This document shows, one piece after another, positions 33,338-51,733 of a DNA stretch of 64,000 bases. Source of the DNA: Bacillus zhangzhouensis (GTDB taxonomy: Bacteria; Bacillota; Bacilli; Bacillales; Bacillaceae); contig CP099514.1 of NCBI GenBank assembly GCA_025809375.1, positions 1,612,001 to 1,676,000 on the forward strand. Direction: 5' to 3'. Under the pieces are notes generated by a model. It did no database searches. It was not told where the DNA came from and saw only the letters and a program-made list of their open reading frames with translations. The translations under genes were made by a program, and so were the position numbers. Position 1 is the stretch's first letter. Every line of letters starts with the position of its first letter.

Positions 33338-34000
33338 TTGAAAAAGAAAAAAACAGGATGTTTTGCCATTTCAGGCTGTTTCACGATTTTTCTATTTGTT
33401 TTCGTATTAGCAGCCATTGCCATCTCCTTTAATCAAGAAGAGCTAAAAAAGCTACCGATTGATACGGAACCAATTGTTTTGTCGAGATTGGATGATTACA
33501 AACCGCTTGTAGAAACAGAGTTAAGAGATCAAGATTTAGATCAGTATACCGCGTTAATCCTCGGTATGATGTATCAAGAATCAAAAGGCAGAGGCGGAGA
33601 TCCAATGCAGGCCTCTGAATCTCTTGGTTTGAAACGAAATGAAATCAATGACCCTCAGAAAAGCATAAGACAAGGAGTTCATCATTTTTCTACTATGTAC
33701 AAGCATGGGAAGAAAAAAGGCGTTGATTTGGAAACCATTATTCAAAGCTATAACATGGGAATCGGCTATATTGATTTTGTTGCAAAAAACGGGGGAAAAC
33801 ATTCCGAAAAATTGGCAAAGCAATACTCTAAAAAACAAGTGAAACGAAACCCCAAGGTCTATACGTGCGGCGGCAACAAAGATAACTTCCGCTATCCGTA
33901 TTGCTACGGTGATTTCACTTACGCTGAAAAAGTAAAAGAAAAAACGAAAACAGTTAAAGAAAAGATGAAATTGGCTTCATCATCCACACCATCATCTTAA
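33338..34000 (+). CDS. yocA: Lysozyme-like (CwlT-type) secreted protein
   Basis: A 220-aa protein with TTG start (AGGGGTGA upstream), a basic N-terminus and one membrane anchor (FTIFLFVFVLAAIAI, ~16-32). A CwlT/bacterial lysozyme-like domain follows, with catalytic Glu in GMMYQESKGRGGDPMQASE (~80) and the late motif QSYNMGIGYIDF. It probably cleaves glycan strands at the outer membrane face. Position next to czrA fits B. subtilis yocA. Its terminator has been split by the IS element. Confidence 0.75.
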   Translation: MKKKKTGCFAISGCFTIFLFVFVLAAIAISFNQEELKKLPIDTEPIVLSRLDDYKPLVETELRDQDLDQYTALILGMMYQESKGRGGDPMQASESLGLKRNEINDPQKSIRQGVHHFSTMYKHGKKKGVDLETIIQSYNMGIGYIDFVAKNGGKHSEKLAKQYSKKQVKRNPKVYTCGGNKDNFRYPYCYGDFTYAEKVKEKTKTVKEKMKLASSSTPSS

Positions 34001-34004
34001 AAAA

Positions 34005-34027
34005 AGCACTTCCGTAATGGAAGTGCT
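34005..34027. repeat. Left copy of the 23-bp hairpin duplication
   Basis: AGCACTTCC, loop GTAAT, GGAAGTGCT. It is identical to 35576-35598 and is both the target-site duplication of the IS and the hairpin of the yocA terminator. The U-tract that should follow now lies beyond the IS. Confidence 0.9.
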
Positions 34028-34030
34028 CAG

Positions 34031-34066
34031 GCTGTCGAGAAAATCTCGACAGCTTTATTTTTTCCT
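34031..34066 (+). terminator. Inward-facing terminator at the IS left end
   Basis: GCTGTCGAGA-AAA-TCTCGACAGC followed by TTTATTTTTT. It should stop yocA read-through before the transposase gene. Confidence 0.8.
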
Positions 34067-34128
34067 TAAAGTTTCCATTCCCTTTCTTTATAATAGAGAA
34101 AAGCATATTAAAGGAAGGTGTTTTTCTC

Positions 34129-35481
34129 ATGTTCCACACTAGACATTCTTCTCAGCACGAAGCCGAATTTGTATTGCTAGATCAACTGGTCGAAGAGGAT
34201 CACCTGCTTCGTAAAATTGATCAGTACATTGATTTTTCATTTATCGTAGATAAAGTAAAACCATATTATAGCGAGAATAAAGGTCGTCCTTCACTTGATC
34301 CACTTATTTTGTTCAAAATGATGTTTATCGGATACCTGTACGGTATCCGTTCTGAAAGACAACTCGAAAAAGAAATTTACTATAACATGGCGTATAGATG
34401 GTTTTTAGGTTTGAACATCAATGACCCCGTTCCTCATCACTCGACCATTAGCTGGAATCGTCGGACTCGCTTCAAAGATACAACGATTTTTCAAGATATT
34501 TTTGATGAAATTGTGCTCCAAGCCATCAATCATGATATGGTAGGAGGCCGCGTTCTTTTTACTGATTCCACTCATCTTAAAGCCAATGCCAATAAACATA
34601 AATATACGAGAAAAACGATTGAACAAGATACTCAGAACTATATAAATCATTTAGAAGAAGCGATCCAAGAAGATCGGGTGGCACACGGAAAAAAGCCCTT
34701 AAAGATAAAGGAGGAGGTGAAAACAGAAAAAAACATCCGTCAAAGTAAGACTGATCCTGAAAGTGGCTATCTTTATCGTGAAAATAAACCGGAAGGATTT
34801 TTCTACCTGGACCATCGTACAACCGATATGAAGTTCAATATCATCACGGATGCCCATGTTACGCCCGGCAATGTCCATGATTCCGTTCCATATCTTGAAC
34901 GATTGGATCACCAAATCGCCCGATTTGGTTTTCAAGTAGAAGCTGTTGCCCTTGATTCTGGTTATTTGACAACGCCCATCTGTAAAGGTTTATCTGATCG
35001 TCATATTTTTGGTGTCATTGCACATAGACGCTTTCATCCAACAAGAGGATTATTCGAGAAGTGGAAATTCCAGTATGATTCTGAACATGATCATTACATA
35101 TGCCCAAATGGTGAGAAGCTATTATATACAACAACTGATCGAAAAGGTTATAGATTCTACAAATCAGACACTAAAAAATGCGTATCGTGTCCTTTCCTTG
35201 AGAACTGTACAAGATCGAAAAATCATCAAAAAGTGATCTCAAGACATGTATGGGAGGAACATAAAGAAAAGATCAGACAAAATCGTCTGTCTGCCTTTGG
35301 AAAAGAGCTATATCAAAAAAGAAAAGAAAAAATAGAGCGAAGCTTTGCAGATTCAAAACAACTGCATGGGCTTCGCTACTGCCGGTTGAGGGGAAAACAA
35401 AATGTGAGTGAGCAAGTGCTTCTCACAGCTGCCTGCCAGAACATGAAGAAGATTGCCACACACCTAGCGAAGCTAGGCTAG
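34129..35481 (+). CDS. IS1182-family transposase
   Basis: A 450-aa DDE transposase. The N-terminal DUF772-like domain shows GRPSLDPLILFKMMFIGYLYG and SERQLEKEIYYNMAYRWF. The catalytic acidic residues are likely Asp in FTDSTHLKANANK (~145), Asp in VALDSGYL (~270) and Glu in KEKIERSFADSKQLHGLRYC (~400). A Cys-rich insert (CVSCPFLENC) precedes the last. ATG follows AAAGGAAGG and a TATAAT -10 (~34090). A CACACACCTA/TAGGTGTGTG hairpin covers the stop. The frame is intact, so the element may be active. Confidence 0.92.
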   Translation: MFHTRHSSQHEAEFVLLDQLVEEDHLLRKIDQYIDFSFIVDKVKPYYSENKGRPSLDPLILFKMMFIGYLYGIRSERQLEKEIYYNMAYRWFLGLNINDPVPHHSTISWNRRTRFKDTTIFQDIFDEIVLQAINHDMVGGRVLFTDSTHLKANANKHKYTRKTIEQDTQNYINHLEEAIQEDRVAHGKKPLKIKEEVKTEKNIRQSKTDPESGYLYRENKPEGFFYLDHRTTDMKFNIITDAHVTPGNVHDSVPYLERLDHQIARFGFQVEAVALDSGYLTTPICKGLSDRHIFGVIAHRRFHPTRGLFEKWKFQYDSEHDHYICPNGEKLLYTTTDRKGYRFYKSDTKKCVSCPFLENCTRSKNHQKVISRHVWEEHKEKIRQNRLSAFGKELYQKRKEKIERSFADSKQLHGLRYCRLRGKQNVSEQVLLTAACQNMKKIATHLAKLG

Positions 35482-35540
35482 GTGTGTGGGAGGCCTTTTT
35501 CATTAAATCTCATCCATCATAATTAAGATGGAATTAAAAA

Positions 35541-35574
35541 AGATTGTAGAAAAACATGAGTTTCTCTACAATCT
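35541..35574 (-). terminator. Inward-facing terminator at the IS right end
   Basis: Read on the minus strand, AGATTGTAGA and TCTACAATCT arms are followed by a T-run. It should stop transcripts of the prpCDB-type operon entering the IS. Confidence 0.75.
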
Positions 35575-35575
35575 G

Positions 35576-35598
35576 AGCACTTCCGTAATGGAAGTGCT
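35576..35598. repeat. Right copy of the 23-bp hairpin duplication
   Basis: Identical to 34005-34027. It retains the plus-strand U-tract (TTTTCATTTT) that once belonged to the yocA terminator. Confidence 0.9.
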
Positions 35599-35605
35599 TT
35601 TCATT

Positions 35606-36523
35606 TTATCGCTGTTCTTTCCCAATTTCCGGCAGGATCGTTTTCGCTAAATGCTGATCCATTTCCTCATATTCATCATAATGAATCGTTTCATACAGCT
35701 CTTTTCTCGTTTGCATATCCCCAAGTATCCCCTGCTGCGTCCCCTTTTCCATGATTTCTGTAAATAAACGCTCATACGCTTTTGCAGCGACTCTGAGTGA
35801 TGACACAGGGTAAATAACCATCTGAAAACCAAACATAGAAAATTCGTCTGCAGGATAATAAGGTGTCTTGCCAAATTCTGTCATGTTTGCAAGGAGCGGA
35901 CTTTGAATATGGTTTGACACATGCGTGAAGTCCTCTGCTGTGATGAGTGCCTCAGGAAAAATAGCATCAGCCCCTGCTTCTACGTAAAGATTGGCCCGGC
36001 AGATGACATCCTCCATTCCATTTACGGACTTTGCATCAGTTCTCGCAATCACCAAAAGCGTTGGTGCCGCTTGTTTGATGGCTTTGATTTTTTCGACCAT
36101 TTCTTCTACTGGAACGAGTGATTTTCCGTTTAAATGCCCGCATTTTTTTGGCATTTGCTGATCTTCAATTTGAACAGCTGCCACCTTGCTTTCAACCATT
36201 TCTTTTGCCGCTCTTGCTGCATTTAAAACACCGCCATAACCTGTGTCCATATCGACCAAAAGCGGAAGCTGGGAAGCTCGAATAATTTCCTTCGCTTTTT
36301 CAGCCATTTCTGTTGAATGGATCATGCCGAGATCAGGCAGTCCTTTGCTGGCGCAAAAAGCGGCACCTGATAAATAGAGCCCTTGGAAGCCCATTTTTTT
36401 TGCATAGAGCGCAGACATTCCGTCGTGAACGCCTGGAATTTGAAATAAAGCTGATTTGTGCATTTGTTCTTTAAAGGCTGCGGCTAAATCAGCCTGATTT
36501 GTTTCTTCATTCACGATCCACAC
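35606..36523 (-). CDS. prpB: 2-methylisocitrate lyase
   Basis: A 305-aa isocitrate lyase/PEP mutase family protein (B. subtilis YqiQ/MmgF type). It splits 2-methylisocitrate into pyruvate and succinate. The motifs YLSGAAFCASKGLPDLG, MDTGYGG and the catalytic loop MPKKCGHLNGK (Cys at ~127) are present. Third gene of the 2-methylcitrate operon, 12 nt after prpD, with ribosome binding site AGGGGGAG. Confidence 0.92.
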   Translation of the reverse strand: MWIVNEETNQADLAAAFKEQMHKSALFQIPGVHDGMSALYAKKMGFQGLYLSGAAFCASKGLPDLGMIHSTEMAEKAKEIIRASQLPLLVDMDTGYGGVLNAARAAKEMVESKVAAVQIEDQQMPKKCGHLNGKSLVPVEEMVEKIKAIKQAAPTLLVIARTDAKSVNGMEDVICRANLYVEAGADAIFPEALITAEDFTHVSNHIQSPLLANMTEFGKTPYYPADEFSMFGFQMVIYPVSSLRVAAKAYERLFTEIMEKGTQQGILGDMQTRKELYETIHYDEYEEMDQHLAKTILPEIGKEQR

Positions 36524-50562: not shown

Positions 50563-51513
50563 ATGAACATTCTTTTAACTATTAGTCAATTTGCAGGAAG
50601 AACCTTTGCAATCTGGGTCATTATCTTTGCATGTCTTGGATTTGCTTTTCCTGACGTATTTTCTCAGATTGGGCCGTATATCCCTTTTTTACTAGGTTTG
50701 ATTATGTTTGGGATGGGGCTTACGTTATCTAGTGGAGATTTTAAGGAGCTTTTTCGAAAACCTCTCTATGTGCTAATCGGGGTTTTGGCGCAGTACACAC
50801 TCATGCCGCTGATTGCCTTTATATTAGCTTACGGATTACGTCTGCCGTCTGAAATTGCAGTAGGCGTTATTCTAGTAGGCTGCTGTCCGGGGGGTACAGC
50901 ATCCAATGTCATGACCTTTTTGGCAAAAGGCAATATGGCATTATCCGTAGCGGTCACAACAATATCGACCCTTCTTGCTCCCTTTTTAACGCCTCTTTTT
51001 ATCTTCATTTTTGCAAGATCATGGTTACCTGTATCACCGGAGTCATTATTTTTGTCGATTGTCCAAGTTGTGCTAATTCCTATTATCTTAGGGGTTATCG
51101 TTCAGGTGTTTTTCAAAAAACAAGTAAACTATGCGGTTCAAGCATTGCCGCTTGTATCTGTTGCTGGAATTGTGATGATCATTGCAGCGGTTGTCAGTGC
51201 AAATAAAGAGCAGATTCTTCAATCTGGGTTGCTGATATTGGCCGTTGTCGTTTTACATAATGGGCTCGGTCTTCTGTTTGGTTACCTCATTGCAAAATGG
51301 TGCAAAATGGATATCCCTTCTCAAAGAGCGATTTCGATTGAAGTAGGCATGCAAAACTCGGGGCTCGGTGCAGCCCTTGCGACAGCACACTTCTCCCCGC
51401 TCGCAGCCGTACCAAGTGCAATTTTTAGTGTGTGGCATAATTTATCTGGTTCCTGGCTTGCGACGTATTGGTCAAAACGAGGACAACATGACACCGAAAA
51501 GAAAAAAAGCTAG
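50563..51513 (+). CDS. yocS: Bile acid:sodium symporter family protein YocS
   Basis: A 316-aa BASS-family transporter with about nine to ten hydrophobic helices. Family motifs GLIMFGMGLTL (~45), GCCPGGTASNVMTFLAKGNMAL (~107) and ISIEVGMQNSGLGAALA (~255) form the sodium and substrate sites. Likely Na+-coupled uptake of a small organic anion. The best ribosome binding site (GAGGAAAG) points to a 3-codon mini-frame (ATG AAG CAA TGA, 50551-50562) that ends directly before the real ATG. Confidence 0.88.
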   Translation: MNILLTISQFAGRTFAIWVIIFACLGFAFPDVFSQIGPYIPFLLGLIMFGMGLTLSSGDFKELFRKPLYVLIGVLAQYTLMPLIAFILAYGLRLPSEIAVGVILVGCCPGGTASNVMTFLAKGNMALSVAVTTISTLLAPFLTPLFIFIFARSWLPVSPESLFLSIVQVVLIPIILGVIVQVFFKKQVNYAVQALPLVSVAGIVMIIAAVVSANKEQILQSGLLILAVVVLHNGLGLLFGYLIAKWCKMDIPSQRAISIEVGMQNSGLGAALATAHFSPLAAVPSAIFSVWHNLSGSWLATYWSKRGQHDTEKKKS

Positions 51514-51532
51514 CACCTTAACAAGTGCTAGC
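51508..51532. repeat. Left copy of the 25-bp hairpin duplication
   Basis: GCTAGCAC/GTGCTAGC arms with loop CTTAACAA, preceded by A. Identical to 51709-51733. It overlaps the yocS stop codon and was the shared yocS/odhB terminator hairpin. Confidence 0.9.
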
Positions 51533-51708
51533 CAGCGTGTAGACAAACCCTCGCATTCGGTGTCAGTCCTGCGCGCTGGTGCTCACGAATGTCAAATTCG
51601 CTCCGCGCCAGTGCTCGTCCTTCCTAGAGCTGCAAAGGTTTTCTATCACGCTGAAAAGAAGAAAAAGGGCTAAAATCAACATCATTTTAGCCCTTTGTCA
51701 ACAATCTG
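51533..51708. mobile_element. MITE-like element (176 bp) with IS1182-type ends
   Basis: The ends CAGCGTGTAGACAAA and, inverted, CAGATTGTTGACAAA match the ends of the full IS in this window (consensus CAGNNTGTNGASAAA). Exact 25-bp repeats flank it. There is no coding capacity. The inside is highly structured: the left end repeats inverted at 51637-51652 (GGTTTTCTATCACGCTG), with a nested GCGCTGGTGC/GCGCCAGTGC hairpin. A GGGCTAAAAT/ATTTTAGCCC hairpin lies near the right end with a T-rich tail on the minus strand. Confidence 0.8.
51660..51697 (-). terminator. Terminator in the MITE right end
   Basis: Minus strand GGGCTAAAAT / ATTTTAGCCC followed by TTTTTCTTCTTTT. It can terminate odhA-odhB transcripts; the opposite strand has a shorter TTT tail. 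Confidence 0.8.
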
Positions 51709-51733
51709 AGCTAGCACCTTAACAAGTGCTAGC
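51709..51733. repeat. Right copy of the 25-bp hairpin duplication
   Basis: Identical to 51508-51532; followed by the original T-run of the plus strand. Confidence 0.9.

Follow-up and report, generated by a model that had tools for sequence, protein, structure and literature searches.

Genetic context of the insertion

The window, that is the whole 64,000-nucleotide stretch of DNA analysed, contains an IS1182-family insertion sequence (IS) located between two convergent host genes. The features used below are the following.

33338-34000, + strand: upstream host gene, lysozyme-like (yocA type), PF13702
34005-34027, no strand: left target copy, a complete terminator hairpin of 23 bp, single copy in genomes G013, G023 and G024
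34028-35575, + strand: IS1182-family insertion sequence, 1548 bp, ends CAG...CTG
34029-34063, + strand: left-end inward terminator, with the terminal repeat as 5′ arm and a T-rich run after it
34129-35481, + strand: transposase, 450 aa, single ORF (NF033551, E 5e-142; DDE residues D146, D276 and E403)
35456-35500, no strand: hairpin at the transposase stop codon, from terminator scan and RNA folding
35534-35574, - strand: right-end inward terminator, a hairpin with a 15-bp stem and a T-run read leftward
35576-35598, no strand: right copy of the duplicated hairpin, identical to the left copy
35606-36523, - strand: convergent host gene, PEP mutase / isocitrate lyase superfamily (prpB type)
51533-51708 (site 51508-51733), - strand: second example in the window, a 176-bp MITE with CAG...CTG ends

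Four nucleotides separate the stop codon of the lysozyme-like gene from the left hairpin copy. Both flanking copies (34005-34027 and 35576-35598) are exactly AGCACTTCCGTAATGGAAGTGCT. An earlier note on this DNA had described an exact 23-bp stem-loop on both sides of the IS, the left copy being followed by CAGGCTG and the right copy, in reverse reading, by CAGATTG; each of these points was confirmed in the sequence. A terminator scan found seven terminator-like sites, against a mean of 1.6 in shuffles. The left-end inward hairpin was placed at 34029-34055 (+) with the tail TATTTTTTCC, and the right-end one at 35574-35541 (-) with the tail TTTTTAATTC, in agreement with the same note, which had read the IS ends as inward hairpins with T-runs. 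The scan also showed both host hairpin copies to be outward-reading (35575-35599, + and 34028-34004, -), a feature absent from that note; the right copy followed by TTTTCATTTT retains its outward terminator reading. RNA folding gave z-scores of -5.9 and -7.0 for the IS ends and of -7.2 for the hairpin of the joined empty site. For each hairpin, the folding energy was far under that of shuffles. Judging from its sequence, the hairpin at 35456-35500 probably serves as the terminator of the transposase gene itself.

Repeated insertion at one terminator

For an empty-site search, the flanks were joined with one hairpin copy and used as a query across the genus. The uninterrupted site was found in three relatives (G023, G024 and G013), with one hairpin each, its stem conserved and its loop variable. 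This comparison with uninserted strains, suggested in the earlier note, is in line with duplication of a single hairpin. Further elements occupy this terminator in other relatives, in every case between hairpin copies: an internally deleted, oppositely oriented copy of the window IS in G029, a MITE of about 175 bp in G022 and G041, and the MITE again, but in the other orientation, in G021. The window terminator is a hot spot, with at least four insertions in the genus that are separable by orientation and element type. Directly upstream of it, G029 and G018 (L358 and L359) have over 1 kb of inserted foreign DNA that apparently carries a gene.

The genome contains ten near-identical copies of the window IS. 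All ten are flanked by an exact direct repeat of 19-25 bp, and every repeat is a complete hairpin with a stem of 7-10 bp. None of the ten lies within a gene; the neighbour genes are convergent at seven of them and the stop codon is usually within 10 nt. One copy, L009 (G000:C1:1605855-1607203), has a broken transposase frame. Chance and an assembly artefact were ruled out, the ten flanks being different and each having its own hairpin.

The 176-bp MITE of the window is flanked by exact 25-bp copies of another hairpin (51508-51532 and 51709-51733) and only one of its ends has an inward terminator. About 40 places in the genome match it. Among 30 MITE copies examined, a hairpin was found within 30 nt at 20 on the left and at 19 on the right (null 4%). 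IS copies L003, L005 and L154 are nested in or adjoin MITE copies; L003 is inserted into the MITE's own internal terminator hairpin.

The duplication is the hairpin

The analysis was then extended to IS copies found within the genus, in the class and in public genomes; the single copies among L284-L300, a part of the class-wide sample, were not delimitable. We counted 141 distinct insertions with both flanks, taking 12 bp or more as a duplication. A duplication was present in 106 of them. In 102/106 cases it contained a stem of at least 6 bp, the corresponding proportions being 16% among dinucleotide shuffles and 5% among flanking windows. The dyad was the exact centre of the duplication (offset zero) in 95/106, and the duplication length, which ranged from 13 to 33 bp, followed the hairpin length (r=0.95). 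Overall, the target is an inverted repeat whatever its sequence (102/106). Random sites with short unrelated duplications, which according to the earlier note would have spoken against targeting, were not what we found: the duplications are hairpins in 10/10 own-genome copies and in 102/106 cases among relatives.

The 35/141 insertions without a duplication are in part fragments; at several, the hairpins on the two sides differ from each other, a pattern compatible with recombination between copies. At L100, the two flanking hairpin copies are mutually reverse complement (loop TCC vs GGA), as if inverted during or after insertion.

One may ask whether selection alone would produce this pattern, insertion being more or less random and only gene-end insertions surviving, with hairpin duplications left over. 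No own-genome copy lies within a gene and purging of gene disruptions is general, and loss of gene-borne copies may exaggerate the apparent targeting. Such purging would not, however, make the duplication equal the hairpin: it cannot centre the duplication on the hairpin in 95/106 insertions or make its length track that of the hairpin, nor does it account for one terminator struck by at least four separable insertions. We therefore regard selection as a highly improbable explanation.

At least three T were present in the next 6 nt at 95/106 sites, against 28% in the null. With this T-tract and a location just past stop codons, the targets are putative working terminators. The claim of the earlier note that the element targets terminators is thus supported, most hairpin duplications lying beside A- or T-tracts. 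Good tracts on both sides were found at 62/106 sites and on neither side at 7/106, so that the hairpin is a more constant feature than the tracts. Because of these seven sites, the recognised feature is probably the hairpin itself. At the feet of the hairpin, the first base is A in 86% and the second is never or almost never T. Both feet show an A/AR pattern, with a strong preference for A at positions -3 to +1. This weak sequence preference at the cut means that recognition is not purely structural.

A dimeric transposase reading two inverted half-sites (AAA/AR feet, formed by the A-tract and the T-tract of a terminator) at variable spacing, with an incidental hairpin, would fit the base composition of both feet, where A is preferred from -3 to +1 and T hardly occurs at +2, as well as the A- or T-tract found at most sites. 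It fits less well with a stem in 102/106 duplications when only 62/106 have both good tracts and 7/106 have neither, and a spacing of 13-33 bp without fixed helical phase is awkward for a dimer on linear DNA. Sequence recognition of this kind is in our opinion rather unlikely, though much less so than selection. We consider it probable that the window IS is a cut-and-paste IS1182-family element whose transposase targets intrinsic-terminator hairpins, guided mainly by hairpin structure.

The IS ends read as conserved inward terminators

A hairpin followed by a T-run, read inward, was found at 66/67 left ends and 65/67 right ends, and at both ends in 64/67 distinct end pairs. The nulls were 4% for interior windows and 0% for the same ends read outward. 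The double inward terminator design, proposed in the earlier note from the window copy, is thus conserved. In most members, the terminal repeat itself is the 5′ arm of the end hairpin and the partner arm covaries with it. For example, position 9 of the right end forms A-T, C-G, T-A and G-C pairs among members. Own arms were 98-99% paired, as compared to 89-90% when arms were swapped. In distant members (L103, L106, L111 and the right end of L182), the hairpin begins at about position 9-13, with the T-run still following in most. Proteobacterial and Lentisphaera members have a deeper end hairpin, usually still with a T-run behind it. Overall, the conserved sequence features point to termination as a maintained function of the end hairpins.

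The end hairpins might instead serve transposase binding or end recognition, termination being a by-product, as the identity of the 5′ arm with the terminal repeat in most members would suggest. Against this, the hairpin starts at about position 9-13 in distant members with the T-run yet present in most, the T-run has no obvious part in end recognition, and an IS1272-like clade, defined by GAGGCTG-type ends, has its inward hairpins and T-runs about 30 nt inside the end (9/11 left and 8/11 right ends). We hold this explanation to be unlikely and favour termination as the maintained function.

At L360 (G021, 898-2440), an IS1182 relative with 46% identity has a copy of the window IS within its left-end terminator hairpin, with a chimeric right end. 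Therefore, IS-end terminators themselves serve as targets.

Two clades with two insertion modes

The transposase scored 474 bits against the IS1182 family model NF033551 (cut-off 270). The element has the traits of the family: one 450-aa DDE ORF, terminal inverted repeats starting with CAG and a length of 1548 bp, IS1182 members usually measuring about 1.3-1.95 kb. Residues D146, D276 and E403 were invariant in 23 sequences. The predicted structure (pLDDT 88) had piggyBac and Tn5 as nearest solved folds, with low TM-scores (fold matches 6x67, E 4e-5, and 1muh, E 8.5e-5); a sequence search of the transposase against solved structures gave no match.

A tree of 69 transposases was built with midpoint rooting; some branches are long. 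The hairpin-duplicating elements form one supported clade (99/97) across Bacillota, Pseudomonadota and Lentisphaerota. The hairpin flanks of an Ignavibacteriota element within it are loop-inverted. A separate clade (100/100) comprises the elements that have GAGGCTG-type ends and lack a duplication. The window IS, with ends CAGGCTGTCGAG/CAGATTGTAGAG, is not of the GAGGCTG type and falls outside the IS1272-like clade. Rather than the IS1272-type removal of the stem-loop without duplication, an exact whole-hairpin duplication was found in 10/10 copies. In the GAGGCTG-type clade, a 26-bp hairpin is present in four relatives exactly where the IS of L266 now sits without it. Hairpin replacement by the IS1272-like sister clade is confirmed at this one site; a similar search for the empty site of another IS1272-like copy (G085) gave no useful relative.

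A model for insertion and its consequences

In established DDE chemistry, the 3′ ends of the transposon are linked to 5′ phosphates of the target, and whatever lies within the stagger is duplicated. That this stagger measures 13-33 bp and matches the hairpin is most simply explained by a folded target with both 5′ feet attacked. Since this range is tied to the dyad, a fixed stagger on linear DNA is hard to fit. In our model, the palindrome would be extruded to form a cruciform, or be kept folded in some other way, which in vivo would involve stems of 7-10 bp. The transposase would attack the two 5′ feet of the folded hairpin and gap filling would then duplicate the whole stem-loop. If the attack were moved from the 5′ to the 3′ foot, the hairpin would be lost, as in the sister clade.

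On insertion, each host terminator would lose its inner tract, but the inward terminator of the IS would come directly after it. The outer T- or A-tract would remain with the host hairpin copy and form an outward terminator. The insert may thereby be insulated at both ends, neighbours ending at the IS edge with little transcription in or out. Judging from these predicted terminators, the neighbours would remain terminated and the transposase gene would be shielded, as the earlier note had envisaged. Such insulation could be of selective benefit.

In its most general form, the model states that a clade of DDE transposases recognises the folded cruciform junction and attacks both 5′ feet, the duplication being set by DNA structure, that in a sister clade the attack falls on the opposite feet and the hairpin is deleted, and that both are insulated passengers with paired inward terminators. 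We give this general form an even chance.

Comparison with known systems

A short duplication of constant length is the normal product of DDE transposases. One whose length is set by a hairpin points to structure-directed integration; with two sister clades, one duplicating and the other deleting hairpins of the same kind, this mechanism lends itself to direct testing. Targeting of this kind explains how IS build up in compact genomes without gene breakage; their spread leaves extra terminators. Structure-directed integration at safe sites could also serve as a tool. PiggyBac and Tn5, the nearest solved folds though weakly so, have fixed and short targets (TTAA or 9 bp). ISfinder gives direct repeats of 0-60 bp for the IS1182 family and thus probably contains repeats of hairpin size already, though not analysed as such.

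In the openly accessible literature searched, whole-hairpin duplication appeared only as a hypothetical pathway (PMC5678879). No description was found there of the clade-wide duplication, of the duplication/replacement split or of the paired inward terminators as a conserved feature; such repeats may already be listed in databases, for instance ISfinder. REP-targeting insertion sequences insert in extragenic palindromes (PMC1525189). REPs are repeated sequence families, whereas the targets of the window IS share nothing beyond the A/AR feet. Some IS1182 members were noted to target palindromes by Siguier et al. 2015, as cited in PMC4923244 and PMC5678879; both papers mention this in passing, and according to PMC5678879 it came with no detailed data.

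Hairpin and terminator targeting, as well as stem-loop deletion, are already known for IS1272. IS1272 / TnSha1 (IS1182 family) uses stem-loop targets without sequence consensus, several of which are RNA-seq-confirmed terminators, and the stem-loop is replaced or partly deleted with no duplication made (PMC4923244, PMC5678879). The IS1272 transposase has 548 aa, and a published primer at the IS1272 end contains GAGGCTGAGACG (PMC5678879). IS1272 and the window IS have the transposase family and stem-loop targets in common, but IS1272 has the longer transposase, an end of the GAGGCTG type and no duplication. By ends and size it resembles the GAGGCTG-type clade, the IS1272 sequence itself being outside our tree. 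In Figure 13 of PMC5678879 (2017), pathway a, for IS1272, involves the 3′ feet and loses the hairpin, whereas in the hypothetical pathway b, for which no natural element is cited, attack of the 5′ feet duplicates the whole stem-loop. Pathway b predicts exactly the product seen with the window IS, where it is the rule for a clade. Our data provide the natural case of this pathway.
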